From: Streptomyces noursei ATCC 11455
GTDB lineage: Bacteria; Actinomycetota; Actinomycetes; Streptomycetales; Streptomycetaceae
Reading direction: 5' to 3'
Length of the DNA: 64,000 bases
Assembly (NCBI RefSeq): GCF_001704275.1
Contig: NZ_CP011533.1
Span: forward strand, 7,254,001 to 7,318,000
A program made the position numbers and the translations under genes. Position 1 is the first letter of the stretch. The number at the start of each line of letters is the position of its first letter. The notes beneath the pieces were generated by a model. The model saw nothing but the letters and a program-made list of their open reading frames with translations. It did no database searches and was not told the DNA's origin. Shown here one piece after another: positions 20,813-39,912 of this stretch.

Positions 20813-22063
20813 CTACTCGATCCGCTCCATTCTGCCCTGCGGCCCGGCCTCGCCGTCCGCCGGGCGCACCGAGTGCCCCTCCCGGGGCGCCGCCCCGGGC
20901 GCTCCGGCCGGATCGGCCGCCGTCGCCCGCACGGGCAACGGTTGCGTTTCCCGGGGGACGACCCCCGGACCCCCGGCCGGATCCGCCGCCGTCGCCCGCA
21001 CGGACAACGGCTGCGTTTCCCGGGGGACGACCCCCGGACCCCCGACCGGATCCGCCGCCGTCGCCCGCACGGACAACGGCTGCGTTTCCCGGGGGACGAC
21101 CCCCGGACCCCCGACCGGATCCGCCGCCGTCGCCCGCACGGGCAACGGATACACCGGGGGAGTGCCGCCGAACTCCGGGCAGTGCGCCTGGTGGTCGCAC
21201 CAGCCGCACAGTTTCGTCGGCCGCGGACGCCAGTCCCCGGTCTCCGTCGCCTGCTGGATCGCCTCCCACAGCGCCAGCAACTTCCGCTCCACGCCCCGCA
21301 GATCGCGTTCGTCCGGGTCGTACGTCAGCACCTCGCCGTTGCCCAGGTACACCAGTTGCAGCCGGCGCGGCACCACGCCCCGCAACCGCCACACCACCAG
21401 CGCGTAGAACTTCATCTGGAACAGCGCGCCCTCGGCGAACTGCGGCCGGGGCGCCTTGCCGGTCTTGTAGTCGACCAGCCGCACCTCGCCCGTCGGCGCC
21501 ACGTCGACCCGGTCGATGAACCCCCGCAGCCGCAGCCCGGACTCCAGCACCGTCTCGACGTACAGCTCGCGGTCGGCCGGCTCCAGCCGCGTCGGATCCT
21601 CCAGCGTGAACCAGCGGTCCACCAGCGCCTCGGCCTCCGCCAGCCACTGCCCCAACCGCTCCCCGTCCGCGTCGTCCGCGAACAACTCGGCCAGCTCGGG
21701 GCGCTTGGCCAGCAGCTTCTCCCACTCGACCGGCACCAGCGCGCGGGCCCCGACGGCCGTGCGCTGCGCCGCGGGGGCGTCGAAGAGCCGCTCCAGCACG
21801 GCGTGCACCACCGTGCCCCGGGTCGCCGCCGGGCTCGGCTTCTCCGGCAACTTGTCGATCACACGGAAGCGGTAGAGCAGCGGGCACTGCATGAAGTCGC
21901 TCGCCCGCGACGGCGACAGCGCCACCGGCGGCTGCGCCCCGCCCCGCGCCGGCTCCACGGCCCCCGCCGGCACCGCACCCTGCGCCGGCACCGCGGCCGC
22001 CGCCGCCGGCTCCGGACCGCCGCCCGGCGCCTCCGCCTCGGTCTTCTCCGTGCTCCATCCCAT
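20813..22063 (-). CDS. RecB-family nuclease (PD-(D/E)XK, Cas4-like fold)
   Basis: 416 residues. The nuclease core (about residues 55-310) has SPSRASDFMQCPLLYRFR, RGTVVHAVLE, GFIDRVD, VRLVDYKTGK (the D-x-K catalytic core) and a C-terminal CGWCDHQAHCPEF cluster which, with the early Cys, could hold an iron-sulfur cluster as in AddB/Cas4 relatives. After residue 315 come four copies of a 23-residue repeat (see repeat entry). The ATG at 22061-22063 has no ribosome site but lies 7 bases after the -10 of a perfect DNA-damage promoter, implying leaderless translation. Likely DNA repair function. Confidence 0.85.
   Translation of the reverse strand: MGWSTEKTEAEAPGGGPEPAAAAAVPAQGAVPAGAVEPARGGAQPPVALSPSRASDFMQCPLLYRFRVIDKLPEKPSPAATRGTVVHAVLERLFDAPAAQRTAVGARALVPVEWEKLLAKRPELAELFADDADGERLGQWLAEAEALVDRWFTLEDPTRLEPADRELYVETVLESGLRLRGFIDRVDVAPTGEVRLVDYKTGKAPRPQFAEGALFQMKFYALVVWRLRGVVPRRLQLVYLGNGEVLTYDPDERDLRGVERKLLALWEAIQQATETGDWRPRPTKLCGWCDHQAHCPEFGGTPPVYPLPVRATAADPVGGPGVVPRETQPLSVRATAADPVGGPGVVPRETQPLSVRATAADPAGGPGVVPRETQPLPVRATAADPAGAPGAAPREGHSVRPADGEAGPQGRMERIE
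20910..21151 (-). repeat. 69-bp in-frame tandem repeat inside the RecB-family gene
   Basis: Three full 69-base units begin at 20910, 20979 and 21048 and a partial fourth at 21117; copies 2 and 3 are nearly identical. Each encodes 23 residues, with RATAADPxGGPGVVPRE as the conserved core. A decayed unit (APGAAPREG) continues the array towards the C-terminus. The repeat is Pro/Gly-rich and probably disordered. Length in multiples of three keeps the frame, so copy number can vary without breaking the nuclease. Confidence 0.95.
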
Positions 22064-22070
22064 GCACAGA

Positions 22071-22093
22071 ACCCTACGGCCCGCCACTGACAA
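22071..22093 (-). promoter_or_regulatory. RecA-NDp (PafBC-type) DNA-damage promoter
   Basis: On the minus strand: TTGTCAGTG, 8 bases, TAGGGT. This matches the actinobacterial RecA-independent damage promoter TTGTCRGTG-N8-TANNNT at every defined position, and also the Streptomyces recA form with TTGTCAGTGGC and TAG..T. The ATG of the RecB-family gene is 7 bases after the -10, so the transcript should begin at the start codon. In mycobacteria this motif is activated by PafBC, which is encoded 16 kb away here. Confidence 0.85.
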
Positions 22094-22248
22094 TCGCCGA
22101 CGCGTCACCGACGGTGAGACCGCTGCCCGACCCCGCGGCCGAGTGCGGCCGGAAGCTCCGCATACCATCGACGTCGGGCACCTTTGCCCTGCATGATCGA
22201 GTTGTCAGACAGTGCAGGTGCCGTAGCCGTATTCGACGAGGGGACGCC

Positions 22249-23553
22249 GTGGACGAGAGCGGGAAGCCGCAGGACCCCCAGGAGTCGGGGCCGGACCGGC
22301 CGCCCCAGCCGACCGAACACGCCCCCGACGGACCCCAGCCGCCGTCCCCGGGCACCCCGGGCACACCAGGGGGAGAGGACCGGGCGCACACCGAGCCGAA
22401 GGCCCCCGGCGGCGGCATCCTCATGGGCCGCCCCTTCGGTGTGCCCGTCTACGTCGCGCCCAGTTGGTTCCTGGTCGCCGCCCTGATCACCTGGGTGTTC
22501 GGCGGCCAGTTGGAGCGGGTCCTCCCCGAGTTGGGCGCCGCCCGCTACCTGGTCTCCCTGTTCTTCGCGGTCGCCTTCTACGCCTCGGTGCTCGTCCACG
22601 AACTCGCGCACACCGTCGCGGCGATCCGCTTCAAGCTCCCCGTCCGCCGGATCCAGCTCCAGTTCTTCGGCGGCGTCTCGGAGATAGAGAAGGAGACCGA
22701 GACCCCCGGGCGGGAGTTCGTCCTGGCCTTCGTCGGCCCGCTCCTCTCCCTGGTCCTCGCCGGCGTCTTCTACGTGGGCATGCAACTGGTCGAACCGGGC
22801 ACCGTCCCCGGCGTGCTGCTCGCCGGCCTGATGATCTCCAACCTCATCGTCGCCGTCTTCAACCTGCTCCCCGGCCTCCCCCTGGACGGCGGCCGGATGC
22901 TGCGCGCCGTCGTCTGGAAGCTCACCGGCAGGCCGATGAGCGGCACCGTCGCCGCCGCCTGGGTCGGCCGCGCGCTGGCCGTCACCGTCCTCATCGGCCT
23001 GCCGCTGCTCACCCACACCGGCGCCCTCGGCCGGGCCCCCGAGGAGATCGGCGGCGCCGACTCGCTCACCGACGCCCTGCTCGCCGCGATCCTCGCCGCG
23101 ATCATCTGGACCGGCGCCGGCAACAGCCTTCGCATGGCCCGCCTGCGCGAACGCCTCCCCGGCCTCACCGCCCGTACGCTCACCCGGCGCGCCATCCCCG
23201 TCGAGACCGACACCCCGCTGTCCGAGGCGCTGCGCCGCGCCGACGACGCCGGCGCCCGCGCCCTGGTCGTCGTCGACCGGCAGGGATTCCCCACCGCCCT
23301 GGTCCGCGAGGCCGCCATCGTCGGCATCCCCGAGCACCGCCGCCCCTGGGTCACGGTCGGCACCCTCGCCCAGGACCTCAAGGACGGCATGCGGGTCGGC
23401 GCCGAGCTCGCCGGCGAGGACCTCCTGGACCACCTGCGCGCCACCCCCGCCACGGAATACCTCGTCGTCGAGCACTCCGGCGAGATCTACGGCGTCCTCT
23501 CCACCAGCGACGTGGAACGCGCCTTCGTGGCCGCCATGGCCCGCACGCCCTGA
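22249..23553 (+). CDS. Site-2-type M50 metalloprotease with CBS domains
   Basis: 434 residues. A Pro-rich cytoplasmic N-terminus (1-55) is followed by several membrane segments. The zinc motif HELAH is at residues 117-121 and the second metal site is in NLLPGLPLDGG. Two C-terminal CBS-like repeats (about 310-430) suggest nucleotide or ligand sensing. Site-2 proteases cut membrane-embedded substrates such as anti-sigma factors. The GTG at 22249 has GAGGGGA upstream. A TTGTCA / TAGCCG pair near 22204-22231 is a possible promoter in the region shared with the divergent RecB-family gene. Commonly found in this neighbourhood in actinobacteria. Confidence 0.88.
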   Translation: MDESGKPQDPQESGPDRPPQPTEHAPDGPQPPSPGTPGTPGGEDRAHTEPKAPGGGILMGRPFGVPVYVAPSWFLVAALITWVFGGQLERVLPELGAARYLVSLFFAVAFYASVLVHELAHTVAAIRFKLPVRRIQLQFFGGVSEIEKETETPGREFVLAFVGPLLSLVLAGVFYVGMQLVEPGTVPGVLLAGLMISNLIVAVFNLLPGLPLDGGRMLRAVVWKLTGRPMSGTVAAAWVGRALAVTVLIGLPLLTHTGALGRAPEEIGGADSLTDALLAAILAAIIWTGAGNSLRMARLRERLPGLTARTLTRRAIPVETDTPLSEALRRADDAGARALVVVDRQGFPTALVREAAIVGIPEHRRPWVTVGTLAQDLKDGMRVGAELAGEDLLDHLRATPATEYLVVEHSGEIYGVLSTSDVERAFVAAMARTP

Positions 23554-26019: not shown

Positions 26020-26268
26020 CTCGCCTGCCGTTCTTGCGTACGTGAACCGTTTTTGCCTAAGTGGCGCCAGCCCTGACGGGTGTTGACCGACTCGACGATA
26101 CAACCGCTCGCTTTCCGATGTTGTTGGGTGGGTATTCCCCTGGCGTGAGGACGTGCGCAAGGGTGAAGATCGGACACACCCCGACAGTCTTTTCGATCTA
26201 GGGGTTTCAACCTGCACCGGCCCAGGTAGGGTCTGGAAGCGTCCAGCTCCTTGGAGGAGGTGAGGACC

Positions 26269-28035
26269 GTGGCAGCCCACGACGACGACATCAACCGCGG
26301 CATCCGGCCGGGGCGCGGGTCTGAAGATCCAGCCGGTCAGGTTGCCTATCTTGAGCAGGAGATCGCCGTCCTGCGACGCAAGCTCGCCGACTCTCCGCGG
26401 CACACGAGGATTCTCGAAGAGCGGATCGTCGAGCTGCAGACCAACCTGGCCGGCGTTTCCGCTCAGAATGAACGCCTCGCCAATACGCTCCGCGAGGCCC
26501 GCGACCAGATCGTCGCCCTCAAGGAGGAGGTCGACCGGCTCGCGCAGCCGCCCGCCGGTTTCGGCGTCTTCCTGCAGGCGAACGAGGACGGCACCGTCGA
26601 CATCTTCACCGGGGGCCGCAAGCTCCGGGTGAACGTCAGCCCCAGCGTCGAGGCCGAGGACCTCCGGCGCGGCCAAGAGGTGATGCTCAACGAAGCACTC
26701 AACGTGGTCGAGGCCATGGAGTTCGAGAGTGCCGGCGACATCGTCACCCTCAAGGAAGTCCTGGAGGACGGCGAGCGCGCGCTGGTCATCGGGCACACCG
26801 ACGAGGAGCGGGTGGTGCGGCTCGCCGAGCCGCTGCTGGACATCACCATCCGCCCCGGCGACGCCCTGCTGCTCGACTCCCGCTCCGGCTACGTCTACGA
26901 GGTCATCCCCAAGAGCGAGGTCGAGGAGCTGGTCCTCGAAGAGGTCCCGGACATCGACTACACCAAGATCGGCGGTCTGAGCGGTCAGATCGAGCTGATC
27001 CGGGACGCGGTCGAGCTCCCCTACCTCTACCCGGACCTCTTCAAGGAGCACGAACTCCGCCCGCCCAAGGGCGTCTTGCTCTACGGCCCGCCCGGCTGTG
27101 GCAAGACCCTCATCGCCAAGGCGGTCGCCAACTCCCTTGCCAAGAAGGTCGCCGAGGTGACCGGGCAGCCCGCCGGGAAGAGCTTCTTCCTGAACATCAA
27201 GGGCCCCGAGCTGCTCAACAAGTACGTCGGCGAAACCGAGCGGCACATCCGCCTGGTCTTCCAACGGGCCAGGGAGAAGGCCAGCGAGGGCACGCCCGTC
27301 ATCGTCTTCTTCGACGAGATGGACTCCCTCTTCCGGACCCGTGGCTCCGGAGTCAGCTCGGACGTGGAGAACACCATCGTCCCGCAGCTGCTCTCCGAGA
27401 TCGACGGCGTCGAGGGCCTGGAGAACGTGATCGTGATCGGCGCCTCGAACCGCGAGGACATGATCGACCCCGCGATCCTGCGCCCCGGTCGCCTCGACGT
27501 GAAGATCAAGATCGAGCGTCCGGACGCGGAGGCCGCCAAGGACATCTTCTCGAAGTACCTCACGGAAAGGCTCCCGCTGCACTCCGACGATCTCGCCGAG
27601 CACGGGAATTCCCGTAAGGCGGCGGTCAGCGGAATGATCCAGTCGGTCGTCGAGCAGATGTACGCGGAATCCGAGGAAAACCGTTTCCTGGAGGTCACCT
27701 ATGCCAATGGTGACAAGGAAGTCCTCTACTTCAAGGACTTCAACTCCGGCGCGATGATCGAAAACATCGTGGGTCGTGCCAAGAAGATGGCCATCAAGGC
27801 TTTCCTGGAGCACAACCAGAAAGGTCTGCGGGTCTCCCACCTCCTCCAGGCATGCGTGGACGAGTTCAAGGAGAACGAGGACCTGCCCAACACCACCAAC
27901 CCGGACGACTGGGCCCGGATCTCCGGAAAGAAGGGTGAGCGGATCGTCTACATCCGCACCCTGGTCACCGGAAAGCAGGGCGCGGACACCGGTCGCTCCA
28001 TCGACACGGTGGCGAATACCGGCCAATACCTGTAA
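26269..28035 (+). CDS. arc: Proteasome-activating AAA ATPase ARC (Mpa)
   Basis: 588 residues. N-terminal coiled coil (about 25-80) binds Pup, followed by tandem OB folds (about 90-230) and an AAA module with Walker A GPPGCGKT (273-280), Walker [13 protein letters not shown] and SRH residues ([19 protein letters not shown]). It ends in GQYL, the C-terminal tail that docks into the 20S core. It unfolds pupylated proteins and feeds them to PrcAB. The GTG at 26269 (VAAHDDD) is preceded by GGAGGAGG; the resulting length is that of known Streptomyces ARC. Possible -10 TAGGGT at 26226-26231. Confidence 0.96.
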
Positions 28036-28309: not shown

Positions 28310-29821
28310 ATGACCGTACGGCGAGTAATGGGCATCGAGACGGAGTACGGGATCTCCGTCCCCGGCCACCCGAACGCCAATGCCATGCTCACCTCGTCCC
28401 AGGTCGTCAACGCCTACGCGGCGGCGATGCACCGGGCACGACGTGCCCGCTGGGACTTCGAGGAGGAGAACCCGCTGCGGGACGCCCGCGGCTTCGACCT
28501 CGCCCGCGAGGCCGCCGACTCCAGCCAGCTGACGGACGAGGACATCGGCCTGGCCAATGTCATCCTCACCAACGGGGCCAGGCTCTACGTCGACCACGCA
28601 CACCCCGAGTACAGCGCGCCCGAGGTCACCAACCCGCGGGACGCGGTCCTGTGGGACAAGGCCGGCGAGCGGATCATGGCCGAGGCCGCCGAGCGCGCGG
28701 CCCAGGTCCCCGGTGCCCAGCCCATCCACCTCTACAAGAACAACACCGACAACAAGGGCGCCTCCTACGGGACGCACGAGAACTACCTGATGAAACGGGA
28801 GACCCCGTTCTCGGACATCGTGCGCCACCTGACGCCGTTCTTCGTCTCCCGGCAGGTGGTCACCGGCGCCGGACGCGTCGGCATCGGCCAGGACGGCCAC
28901 GAGCACGGTTTCCAGCTCAGCCAGCGCGCCGACTACTTCGAGGTGGAGGTGGGCCTGGAGACGACCCTCAAGCGGCCCATCATCAACACCCGCGACGAGC
29001 CGCACGCGGACGCCGAGAAGTACCGCCGGCTGCACGTGATCATCGGCGACGCCAACCTCTCCGAGATCTCGACGTACCTGAAGCTGGGCACCACCGCGCT
29101 GGTGCTGTCCATGATCGAGGACGGCTTCATCGCCGTCGATCTCGCCGTCGACCAGCCGGTACGCACCCTCCACCACGTCTCGCACGACCCGTCGCTGCGC
29201 CATCTGATCTCCCTCCGCAGCGGGCGCACGCTGACCGCGGTGCAGCTCCAGATGGAGTACTTCGAGCTGGCCCGCAAGTACGTCGAGGACCGCTACGGCG
29301 CGGACGCCGACGAGCAGACCCGGGACGTGCTCTCCCGTTGGGAGGACGTGCTGGGACGGCTGGAGAACGACCCGATGAGCCTGTCGGGCGAGCTGGACTG
29401 GGTCGCCAAGCGGGAGCTGATGGAGGGCTACCGCCGTCGTGACGGCCTGGACTGGGACGCCGCGCGGCTGCACCTCATCGACCTCCAGTACGCCGACGTG
29501 CGCCCCGAGAAGGGCCTGTACAACCGTCTGGTGGCCCGCGGCAGGATGAAGCGGCTGCTGGACGAGCCGGCGGTCGAACAGGCCGAGCTGAAGCCCCCGG
29601 AGGACACCAGGGCCTACTTCCGCGGCCGCTGCCTGGAGCAGTACGCGGACGACGTGGCCGCCGCCTCCTGGGATTCGGTCATCTTCGATCTGCCCGGTCG
29701 TGACTCTCTGCAGCGGGTGCCCACGTTGGAGCCGCTGCGTGGGACCCGTAAGCACGTGAAGGAGCTGCTGGACCGCTGTCGGACGGCAGAAGAGCTGGTC
29801 AGGACGTTGTCCGGACGCTGA
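28310..29821 (+). CDS. dop: Deamidase of Pup
   Basis: 503 residues, carboxylate-amine ligase-like fold shared with PafA. GIETEYG near residue 8 gives the metal/ATP glutamate, and [14 protein letters not shown] carries Asp95, the position of the catalytic aspartate described for Dop. [18 protein letters not shown] and [19 protein letters not shown] are shared with PafA. It deamidates the C-terminal Gln of Pup to Glu and can also remove Pup. AAGGAGG precedes the ATG. Lies between arc and pup; the longer N-terminal region distinguishes it from the 453-residue PafA. Confidence 0.96.
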
Positions 29822-34845: not shown

Positions 34846-36207
34846 ATGGACCGCCGCATTTTCGGGCTGGAGAACGAGTACGGCGTCACGTGCACGTTCA
34901 GGGGACAGCGCCGACTGTCGCCTGACGAAGTGGCGCGGTACCTCTTCCGCCGTGTCGTGTCATGGGGCCGCAGCAGCAATGTCTTCCTGCGGAACGGCGC
35001 CCGCCTGTACTTGGACGTGGGTTCACACCCGGAATACGCAACTCCCGAGTGCGACAACGTGACCGAGCTGGTCACCCACGACAAGGCCGGCGAACGCATT
35101 CTCGAAGGTCTGCTCGTCGACGCCGAACGCCGCCTGCACGAGGAGGGAATCGCGGGCGACGTCTATCTCTTCAAGAACAACACCGATTCGGCGGGAAACT
35201 CCTACGGCTGCCACGAGAACTATCTCGTGGCCCGGCACGGCGAGTTCTCCCGGCTCGCGGACATCCTCATTCCGTTCCTCGTCACCCGGCAGCTGCTGTG
35301 CGGCGCCGGCAAGGTGCTGCAGACGCCGCGTGGCGCGGTCTACTGCGTCAGTCAGCGCGCCGAGCACATCTGGGAGGGCGTCTCCTCGGCGACCACCCGC
35401 TCCCGGCCGATCATCAACACCCGGGACGAACCGCACGCGGACGCCGAGCGCTACCGCCGTCTGCACGTCATCGTCGGTGACTCCAACATGTCCGAGACCA
35501 CGATGATGCTCAAGGTCGGCGCCACCGACCTCGTGCTGCGGATGATCGAGGCGGGCACCGTCATGCGCGATCTGACGCTGGAGAACCCGATCCGGGCGAT
35601 CCGCGAGGTCAGTCATGACACCACCGGACAGCGCAAGGTGCGGTTGGCCAGCGGACGTGAGGCGTCCGCGCTCGAAGTGCAACAGGAGTACTACGAAAAG
35701 GCCGTGGATTTCTGCGACCGCCGCGGAATCCGCACCGGCACCGTCGAGCGCGTCCTGGAGTTGTGGGGCCGCACGCTGGAAGCCGTTCGCGACCAGGAGC
35801 TGGACCGTATTGCGACCGAGATCGACTGGGTGATGAAACATCAGCTCATCGAGCGGTATCGCGCGAAGCACAACATCAGCATGTCCCATCCGCGCGTGGC
35901 CCAGATAGACCTCGCGTATCACGACATCCACCGCCGCCGGGGTCTTTACTACCTCCTGGAGCGGAAGGGGCAAGCGGCGCGGATCTGCAACGACTTGAAG
36001 ATCTTCGAGGGCAAGTCGGTTCCGCCGCAGACCACGCGCGCGCGGTTGCGCGGCGACTTCATTCGCCGGGCCCAGGAACAGCGTCGTGATTTCACGGTCG
36101 ACTGGGTGCATCTGAAGCTCAATGACCAGGCACAGCGCACGGTCCTGTGCAAGGACCCGTTCCGTTCCGTGGACGACCGGGTGGAGAAGCTGATCGCCGG
36201 AATGTGA
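34846..36207 (+). CDS. pafA: Pup-protein ligase
   Basis: 453 residues, the usual length in Streptomyces. GLENEYG at residues 7-13 supplies the metal/ATP glutamate (Glu9); [14 protein letters not shown] has Asp57, the equivalent of the catalytic base in PafA/Dop. [18 protein letters not shown] and [19 protein letters not shown] are shared with Dop. Using ATP it phosphorylates the C-terminal Glu of deamidated Pup and joins it to substrate lysines. The ATG starts 9 bases after the MFS stop with no clear ribosome site. A strong terminator follows. Confidence 0.96.
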
Positions 36208-37842: not shown

Positions 37843-37878
37843 AGGGTCCGCGCCGACCGGCGCGGGCCCTCCGCTTTT
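37843..37878 (+). terminator. Terminator after the FKBP gene
   Basis: A 12-bp stem with one T-G wobble (AGGGTCCGCGCC / GGCGCGGGCCCT), a GACC loop, then CCGCTTTT: an intrinsic terminator 20 bases past the FKBP stop. Directly after it, TTGCGG and TACGGT with 16-base spacing look like the pafB promoter. Confidence 0.8.
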
Positions 37879-37936
37879 GCGGTACGCACCCAGGGCGGTA
37901 CGGTCACCCGTTGGGAGCCAACGAGAAAGGGCGTCG

Positions 37937-38947
37937 ATGGCGATTGCCAAGGCCGAGCGGCTGATGAATCTGGCGCTGTGCCTGCTGGGGACGCGACGCC
38001 CGCTGAGCAAGCACGAGCTGCGGTCTTCGATCGAGGCCTATGTCGAAGCCTTCGGGCCGGGCGCGGGGACGGGCTTCGGGACGGGGAGCACCGCCGGCGA
38101 CGACTCCTTCAACCGGATGTTCGAGCGGGACAAGGACGACCTGCGCGAGCTGGGCCTGGTCATCGAGACCGTGGACGGCATCGACGGCGAGGTCGGCTAC
38201 CTCGCCCGCCGCGACAGCAACCGGCTGCCCCCGATCACGCTGGACGCCGAGGAGTCCGCGGCCCTCGGGCTGGCCGCCAAGGTCTGGCAGCAGGCCCGGC
38301 TGGCCGGCGCGGCCAGTGGCGCCCTGCAGAAGCTGCGGGCCGCCGGGATGCCGCTGGCCGGGGAGCGCGACGAGGTGGAGGCGGCAGCGCCGCACAGCGC
38401 GCTGGAGCCCCGCATCCCCACCCACGAGGCGGCTTTCGAACCGCTGATGCTGGCCTGCCGGGACCGCCGCCCGGTCGTCTTCGACTACCGCAAGTCCAAC
38501 GCCGCCCACCCCGAGCAGCGGCACATCGAGCCCTGGATCCTGGAGTGCTGGCGCGGCCACTGGTACGTCGCCGGCTGGGACCGGGACCGCGGCGCCGAGC
38601 GGGTCTTCCGGCTCTCCCGGATCACCGGCAAGGTCCGTTCCCGGCAGGGGAAGTTCACCGCGCCGGTGCCCGACCACGTCACCGTCCGCGAGACCGTCGA
38701 GCGCTGGGCGGGGGAGACCGCCACCGGCACCGCGCGGATCAAGCTCCGCACCGGGCACGGCTATCCGCTGCGCGCCCGGGCGCTGGCCGTCCGCGCGCTG
38801 GACGGTGACTGGGACGAGCTGGAGATCCCCTACGGGCACGGACTCGACGCCTGGCTGGTGGAGTTCGGGCCCGATGTGGTCGTACTGGAACCGGCGGAGC
38901 TGCGGGCCGAGGTCATCGACCGGCTGCGCGCGGTGGCCAAGGGCTGA
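37937..38947 (+). CDS. pafB: WYL-domain regulator PafB
   Basis: 336 residues: N-terminal winged helix (about 1-75, LMNLALCLLGTRRPLSKHEL; DKDDLRELGLVIET) and a WYL domain (about 180-270, PVVFDYRKSN, GHWYVAGWDRDRGAERVFRLSRI) plus the C-terminal WCX extension. With PafC it forms the activator that, in mycobacteria, switches on RecA-independent DNA-damage promoters in response to nucleic-acid ligands. ATG 37937 has GAAAGG 6 bases upstream. Its gene is 14 bases from pafC. Two promoters of the target type are present in this window. Confidence 0.94.
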   Translation: MAIAKAERLMNLALCLLGTRRPLSKHELRSSIEAYVEAFGPGAGTGFGTGSTAGDDSFNRMFERDKDDLRELGLVIETVDGIDGEVGYLARRDSNRLPPITLDAEESAALGLAAKVWQQARLAGAASGALQKLRAAGMPLAGERDEVEAAAPHSALEPRIPTHEAAFEPLMLACRDRRPVVFDYRKSNAAHPEQRHIEPWILECWRGHWYVAGWDRDRGAERVFRLSRITGKVRSRQGKFTAPVPDHVTVRETVERWAGETATGTARIKLRTGHGYPLRARALAVRALDGDWDELEIPYGHGLDAWLVEFGPDVVVLEPAELRAEVIDRLRAVAKG

Positions 38948-38961
38948 GTGGGGGACGGAAC

Positions 38962-39912
38962 ATGGCTACGAACGCGATCGACCAGACCCGCCGGATGCTG
39001 TCGCTGGTGACCTATCTGCGCGAGCGCCCCGGCGCCCGCGTCAACGACGTCGCCCGGGCCTTCGGCATCACCGAGGACGAGCTGATCGCCGACCTCGACG
39101 TGCTGCCGATGTGCGGGACGAGCTTCCGCGGCGGCGATCTGATGGACATCGACACCGACGGCGACCGGATCTGGTGGCACAACCCCGACGACGTCGCCGA
39201 GCCGCTGCGGCTGGCCGCCGACGAGGCCACCGCGCTGCTGGTGGCGGCCCGCGCGGTGGCCACCCTCCCCGGGCTGCGCGAGGGCGACCGGCAGGCGCTG
39301 CTGCGGGCCACCGCCAAGCTGGAGGCGGCGGCCGGCGAGGCGGCCGGGGCCAGCTCCCGGCTGTCGGTGACCTTCGAGTCCGAGGGCGGGGTCTTCGCCG
39401 ACGTGGACCGCGCCATCGCCGAGCGGCGTCGGCTGTGGCTGCGCTATTACTCCCCGGCCCGCGACGAGCTGACCGAGCGCGAGGTGGACCCGATCCGGCT
39501 CTTCGCCGTCGGCCACACCTACGTGGAGGCGTGGTGCCGGCTCTCCGAGGCCCGGCGCACCTTCCGCCTCGACCGGGTCGCCGAGATCAGACTGCTGGAC
39601 GCGCCCGCCGACCCGCCGCCGGTCGAGCTGCGCGACCTGTCGGAAGGGCTGGTCCAGCCCGCGGCCGAGGATCCCGAGGTCGCCATCGAGGTCGGGCCCG
39701 GCGGCCGATGGGTCGCCGAGTACTACCCGCACGACAGTGCCGAGGAACTCCCCGACGGGGGCCTGCGGATCACCCTGCGCACGCCCGACCCGGCGTCGCT
39801 GCGCCGGCTGGCGCTCCGGCTGGGCGGGGACGGCCGGATCGTGTCGCCGCCGGCGCTGGCGGCCAGCGCCCGGCAGGCCGCCCGGCAGGCGCTCACGGCG
39901 TACGGCGAGTGA
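38962..39912 (+). CDS. pafC: WYL-domain regulator PafC
   Basis: 316 residues, paralogous to PafB: winged helix (about 1-70, LSLVTYLRERPGARVNDVAR), WYL domain (about 140-215, RRRLWLRYYSPARDELTERE, GHTYVEAWCRLSEARRTFRL) and WCX tail. It acts together with PafB as the DNA-damage transcription activator. The ATG at 38962 is 14 bases after pafB, preceded by GGGGGACGG, and the two are clearly one operon. Confidence 0.94.
   Translation: MATNAIDQTRRMLSLVTYLRERPGARVNDVARAFGITEDELIADLDVLPMCGTSFRGGDLMDIDTDGDRIWWHNPDDVAEPLRLAADEATALLVAARAVATLPGLREGDRQALLRATAKLEAAAGEAAGASSRLSVTFESEGGVFADVDRAIAERRRLWLRYYSPARDELTEREVDPIRLFAVGHTYVEAWCRLSEARRTFRLDRVAEIRLLDAPADPPPVELRDLSEGLVQPAAEDPEVAIEVGPGGRWVAEYYPHDSAEELPDGGLRITLRTPDPASLRRLALRLGGDGRIVSPPALAASARQAARQALTAYGE

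Follow-up and report, generated by a model that had tools for sequence, protein, structure and literature searches.

A predicted PafBC-type promoter fused to the start codon of a RecB-family nuclease gene in Streptomyces noursei and its conservation among relatives

Introduction

Mycobacterial PafBC is described as being activated by single-stranded DNA and as inserting between promoter DNA and domain 4 of the sigma factor, with PafB reading an element near -26 (PMC11804915). The promoters of this class, also known as RecA-NDp, combine a -26 element and a -10 element at a characteristic spacing (TGTCRG-N10-TANNNT), and repair genes lie downstream of them. A RecB-like gene is among the likely targets. 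Under mitomycin C, M. tuberculosis with a recA deletion overexpressed rv2119 compared with the equally treated wild type, and PafBC-driven overexpression was enhanced in the recA deletion strain (PMC8151990). At Rv1955/higB1 of M. tuberculosis, where a RecA-NDp promoter has been mapped, a leader of about 50 nt precedes the start codon (PMC2897130, PMC3968373), in contrast to the start-fused site described below. Within the genus Streptomyces, a promoter of the same type was assigned from sequence to SCO6735 of S. coelicolor, a gene that is induced 5-fold by UV (PMC5087735). Unlike the gene examined here, SCO6735 encodes a macrodomain hydrolase, and PafBC is not mentioned in the text of that paper (0 occurrences). 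According to a 2022 study of the SOS response in S. venezuelae, an initial search suggested a lack of conservation of the M. smegmatis PafBC motif in that species, and it is still to be demonstrated that Streptomyces has a response independent of RecA and LexA (PMC9380542).

Here we describe a site in a stretch of 64,000 nucleotides from S. noursei ATCC 11455 (NZ_CP011533.1, positions 7,254,001 to 7,318,000; hereafter the window, to which coordinates refer). The site resembles the mycobacterial class in both promoter elements and their spacing, in the type of gene downstream and in the presence of pafBC, and differs from it in that the action of PafBC in S. noursei is a prediction. It adds one more promoter to the known PafBC/RecA-NDp class and is of value for how broadly it is conserved, for the disagreement with the printed statement on Streptomyces, and for a leaderless layout that is seemingly found at most exact sites.

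Results and discussion

The promoter element and the start codon

Readout of the minus strand from 22093 to 22071 gave TTGTCAGTG GCGGGCCG TAGGGT, followed by TCTGTGC (22070-22064) and an ATG at 22063-22061. A preliminary description of this DNA had claimed a perfect PafBC-type match here, with the -10 hexamer set 7 bases ahead of the ATG, and both statements held. All 12 defined positions of TTGTCRGTG-N8-TANNNT were matched, and the exact pattern occurred once in the window and not at all in 100 dinucleotide shuffles. The element at about -26, TTGTCAGTG, occupies 22085..22093, the -10 hexamer TAGGGT occupies 22071..22076, and the gap TCTGTGC occupies 22064..22070, all on the minus strand. Transcription is predicted to start within 22064..22070 or at the ATG. 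That no ribosome site is present, as was also claimed, is inexact to the letter, as AGGG within TAGGGT sits 8 nt before the ATG, yet it stands in substance, as this AGGG is not conserved. Relatives carry TAAGGT, TATGGT, TACGCT or TAGGCT at the same position, and AGGG was rejected as a Shine-Dalgarno sequence.

If the gene were instead repressed by LexA as part of the SOS response, the motif would be incidental. A LexA regulon exists in Streptomyces (PMC9380542), but no GAACNNNNGTTC-like site with at most one mismatch was found between 22064 and 22250, the nearest being at 21608, inside the nuclease gene. The window holds 20 such sites in all, equal to the 17.5 expected by chance. Since rv2119 was, in addition, overexpressed without RecA (PMC8151990), we regard LexA control of this gene as exceedingly improbable.

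A one-mismatch PafBC-like sequence was also seen on the plus strand at 22203-22224, directed toward the divergent gene for an M50 (site-2 type) protease (22249..23553, plus strand, start codon assumed; Peptidase_M50). This near match was present in 0 of 10 genus relatives, and the idea that the M50 gene has a PafBC promoter of its own was rejected on that ground.

The nuclease

The gene behind the promoter (20813..22063, minus strand) runs for 416 codons from the ATG at 22063 to a stop at 20813-20815. Its product (416 aa, encoded by 20816-22063) matched Pfam PDDEXK_1 at 129.9 bits against a cut-off of 22, which bore out the RecB-family nuclease named in the preliminary description. Alignment of 16 sequences revealed invariant H87, D184, D198 and K200, including the catalytic D and the DxK of PD-(D/E)XK nucleases, and four invariant cysteines, of which C60 is N-terminal and C286, C289 and C295 are C-terminal to the nuclease core. 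We take this to be the cysteine pattern of Cas4, AddB and other iron-sulphur nucleases, and the enzyme is probably of the iron-sulphur type. Its likeness to Cas4 and AddB covers the PD-(D/E)XK core, the arrangement of the cysteines and weak profile matches. In contrast, scores of 38.3 bits against a cut-off of 65 for Cas4 and of 51.1 bits against 486.5 for AddB place the protein outside both families, and its gene stands alone beside the proteasome cluster. No solved structure matched the nuclease in sequence at E values up to 1.

Rv2119, listed as RecB family exonuclease 3 in a table in PMC2587704, is a RecB-family nuclease like the window protein. Mycobacterial relatives, compared here in place of the Rv2119 sequence itself, were 52-58% identical to the window protein over the aligned part and had the same promoter layout. 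The window protein differs in its longer N-terminus and in a C-terminal tail that bears a repeat. This is a 69-bp tandem repeat of 3.6 copies, 97% alike, which lies in frame at 20904-21148; none of the remaining 15 sequences in the alignment showed it. The nuclease was present in 125 of the 148 sampled genomes of the bacterial class.

Conservation upstream of nuclease genes

Upstream DNA was compared for 110 nuclease loci, selected by hand to the exclusion of weaker, partial, second and some passed-over matches. Scored over the 12 defined positions, the best match had 0 mismatches in 5 regions, 1 in 33, 2 in 24, 3 in 23, 4 in 20 and 5 in 5, while the best matches in reversed, reverse-complement and shuffled controls never had fewer than 3 mismatches. 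In all 62 homologues with 0-2 mismatches, a start codon lay in frame 4-10 nt beyond the -10 hexamer. When the relaxed PafBC consensus of the M. tuberculosis study was used (TGTC(GG/AG/AC)-N10-TA-N3-T; PMC8151990), 73/110 regions matched, compared with 0/110 for either of two controls. For 72 of these 73 regions, an in-frame start followed 4-10 nt past the -10. By best match, a start 4-10 nt on was found at 96 of the 110 loci, a figure that includes 12 of the 20 loci whose best match had 4 mismatches, where some of the matches likely arose by chance (e.g. locus L137); the gap was 6, 7 or 8 nt in 89 of these 96 relatives. The strong columns among the 96 were TGTCRG and TANNGT, with the T, the A and the last T of the hexamer at 97-98% and a flat profile upstream, a pattern explained in part by the choice of best matches. 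A similar analysis of mycobacterial records covered 80 nuclease loci, the top-ranking 80 out of 342 relatives and hence close to the query, with M. tuberculosis not included. Here 71 loci had 0-2 mismatches and 78 had a start codon in frame after 6 or 7 nt, and reversed controls had at least 4 mismatches. Taken together, these comparisons support a conserved PafBC-type (RecA-NDp) promoter that is widely kept in the class, both in its motif and in its spacing from the start codon. The 7-nt gap and its conservation suggest that the nuclease mRNA is probably leaderless.

TANNNT is the usual -10 hexamer of the housekeeping sigma factor, and an ordinary sigma-HrdB promoter, constitutively expressed, might merely resemble the motif. 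However, the 11 bases between TTGTCA and TAGGGT are too short a spacing for a sigma-70 -35, TTGACA-like hexamers at the proper spacing were no commoner than in a shifted control among the 96 relatives, and the conserved part is the TGTCRG block itself. An ordinary sigma-70 promoter was rejected on the spacing and the -35 test, and we consider constitutive expression from such a promoter distinctly improbable.

The relatives also bear on the position of the start codon. The reading frame is open upstream to an ATG at 22168, and a start there (451 codons) would place the motif inside the gene, without function. In contrast, the start that follows the motif was in frame in 62/62 relatives with 0-2 mismatches, the open frame upstream of it ranged from 9 to 1560 nt without pattern, and conservation of the protein began at LSPSR. 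The upstream ATG was rejected on the frames of the relatives and on this conservation, and its use as the true start is hardly credible.

No start-positioned match was found at 14 of the 110 nuclease homologues (3 of family f17, 5 of family f25 and six others). Family f25, with genomes of 1.3-2.2 Mb, had lost the start-positioned motif at 5 of 9 nuclease loci.

The proteasome cluster and pafBC

The proteasome cluster and the nearby pafBC genes given in the preliminary description were both recovered. The cluster comprises genes for the proteasome ATPase (Mpa/ARC; 26251..28035, plus strand; TIGR03689, 837.5 bits), Dop (28310..29821, plus strand; TIGR03688, 816.7 bits), the proteasome beta and alpha subunits, and PafA (34846..36207, plus strand; TIGR03686, 760.8 bits). 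About 16 kb from the nuclease start lie a gene in the PafB position, encoding a protein with WYL and WCX domains (37877..38947, plus strand), and pafC, with HTH_PafC, WYL and WCX domains (38962..39912, plus strand), as identified by domain profile matches. This proximity is not evidence of regulation, because a transcription factor acts in trans. In 30 genomes picked for having the nuclease and PafC on one large contig, the distance between the two was 1.9-33 kb in 30/30, and about 2 kb in nine, all of family f25.

The PafC domain was found in 140 of the 148 sampled genomes, and many genomes encode several proteins that match it. We sought a clean co-loss of PafC and the motif among these genomes and did not find one. 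Among 5 PafC-negative genomes whose nuclease gene was fetched, the start-positioned match was kept in 3 and absent in 2, and PafC-positive genomes without such a match exist, including 3/3 genomes of a single f17 genus, in which PafC is present and the nuclease has no start-positioned match. Two near-complete genomes of family f29 (G029 and G080) kept a relaxed match directly before the nuclease start; PafB and PafC were not detectable in either, and the exact motif occurred nowhere in either genome. In these genomes, either PafBC was lost recently, or it was missed in the assemblies, or another protein reads the motif. The f29 genomes and the multiplicity of PafC-domain proteins would agree with an element read by another damage-responsive activator with the same motif, perhaps another WYL protein. 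The motif, however, is the one published for PafBC (PMC8223512, PMC8151990), and with PafC present in nearly all sampled genomes we judge a different activator to be unlikely.

It is highly likely, judging from the sequence comparisons, that the 23-bp element is a PafBC-dependent promoter of the RecA-NDp class that drives the RecB-family nuclease gene and is fused to its start codon. In the proposed mechanism, DNA damage would give rise to single-stranded DNA, which would bind PafBC, and PafBC would let housekeeping RNA polymerase use a promoter with TGTCRG near -26 and a TANNNT -10 hexamer, without a -35. Transcription would begin at the ATG or within a few bases of it, and ribosomes would translate the leaderless mRNA from its 5' end, yielding a PD-(D/E)XK nuclease, probably of the iron-sulphur type, that may process DNA ends or repair intermediates. 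In S. noursei we infer the action of PafBC, the damage induction and the leaderless 5' end, as well as the role of the nuclease. Damage induction without a need for RecA is the most likely behaviour of the gene, because the mycobacterial PafBC layout fits and because of the data on rv2119 in the recA deletion strain. The nuclease promoter would make a good reporter, since its layout is common to mycobacteria.

Exact sites across the genome and the genus

The preliminary description had proposed a genome-wide search in which recA and other repair genes were expected to share the motif, and this is what the search revealed. The 9.8-Mb genome contained 34 exact matches compared with 0 for the pattern read backwards. 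Across 41 genomes of the genus there were 1056 exact matches (11-44 per genome, median 23) and 5 matches to the reversed pattern, and at least one exact match was found in 109 of the 148 genomes sampled in the class. A chance match at the nuclease gene was rejected on the window shuffles, these reversed-pattern counts and the controls on the upstream regions of homologues.

The genes behind all 34 sites were read from 3 kb around each. Repair-type genes comprised recA, uvrB, uvrC, mfd, pcrA, xthA, ruvC, dnaX and rarA, together with genes for a second UvrD-type helicase, an AlkZ-like glycosylase, a methylated-DNA methyltransferase and a protein with RecD2-type domains. One site precedes a DarG-like macrodomain gene, perhaps a relative of SCO6735. 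Genes without an obvious repair role were prfB, folC, cofGH (F420 cofactor), phoH, a DUF2797 gene, and those for a chorismate mutase, an ABC transporter, an ABC permease and a CoA-transferase; a few sites had no clear gene behind them. A paper by Ahel in 2002 reportedly deals with the recA promoter of S. rimosus.

Sharing of the motif with recA and ruvC does not exclude other control, because both genes are reported LexA targets in S. venezuelae (PMC9380542), and dual control of the two genes in that species is possible. The motif is common in the 41 genus genomes, a set in which S. venezuelae was not examined by name, and it lies at repair genes; this stands against the suggestion in PMC9380542 that the motif is not conserved. 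With a gene list and single-base predictions at hand, the open question of a RecA/LexA-independent response in Streptomyces becomes directly testable.

Start codons at the exact sites

Exact sites were scored as leaderless when an ATG or GTG lay 5-9 nt after the -10 hexamer and opened a frame of at least 50 codons. This test was positive at 24/34 sites in the genome of the window, 14/19 in genome G134, 17/20 in G128 and 12/20 in two genomes of genus g4, which was taken as Mycobacterium; the sites fetched were 20 of 21 exact sites in G128 and 20 of 21 in G003 and G049 together. The frequency of ATG or GTG was 0.16-0.19 per position at 5-9 nt compared with 0.02-0.03 at 10-59 nt. In S. coelicolor, leaderless transcripts account for 21% of primary starts (PMC4895711). 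Binomial tests against this share, counting any ATG or GTG at 5-9 nt (24/34, 15/19 and 17/20), gave 8e-10, 1e-7 and 2e-9, values that are rough because sites within one genome are partly paralogous. Over the 41 genus genomes, the motif-gap-start pattern gave 652 matches per 1056 motif matches, with double counts included where two start codons fit one site.

In the genome of the window, the frame carried a recognised family at 19 of the 24 positive sites. The case of recA is ambiguous, as its usual start lies 36 nt further in. Leadered exceptions were mfd, ruvC and phoH in this genome and, in the two g4 genomes, their recA-like genes. The genes prfB (release factor 2), cofGH and folC have the exact motif in the leaderless position in the same genome. 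Genome G134 contains several exact leaderless motifs, with DUF222 genes behind 2/2 tested and others that begin alike.

The fused layout of promoter and start codon suggests that damage signalling and leaderless translation may be linked, an idea open to testing. It is possible, though doubtful on present evidence, that Actinomycetia have a PafBC damage regulon of leaderless design, with most exact sites fused to a start codon at a gap of 6-8 nt, and that the same unit drives Wadjet in the genus. If this were true, translation in the damage response would also follow the leaderless route, and this could give its products an advantage whenever ordinary initiation is impaired. Under stress, E. 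coli MazF gives rise to ribosomes with a preference for leaderless mRNA, as recounted in PMC3968373, and a ribosome preference of this type is the kind of advantage that such a reading would need. In the excerpts of open-access papers mentioning both 'PafBC' and 'leaderless', a leaderless PafBC regulon is not stated.

Wadjet jetA genes

One of the 34 sites, with the exact motif 7 nt before a GTG, precedes a gene that matched the PADLOC profile JetA3 at 614 bits (jetA; locus record L040:1001-2566, in genome coordinates G000:C1:7720276 onward). The start of a JetC3 gene lies behind it, and no JetB match was obtained at this site. At jetA, this unit of promoter and start codon, with the start in frame after 6-7 nt, was found in 27/29 genus genomes and in 9/9 further ones (36/38). 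One of the two misses has a broken gene, and the other has the exact motif but fails the frame test. JetA was present in 16 of the 148 genomes sampled across the class, 11 of them in the genus of the window; the motif was absent at the five JetA genes outside the genus, all of family f18. No paper linking Wadjet and the PafBC promoter was among the literature matches listed. If the unit does place Wadjet (Jet), an anti-plasmid condensin, under PafBC, plasmid defence would be tied to the single-stranded DNA damage signal. Two genomes carried second jetA copies: the one in G154 was without the motif, and the one in G112, 41% identical, had the exact motif with a longer leader.
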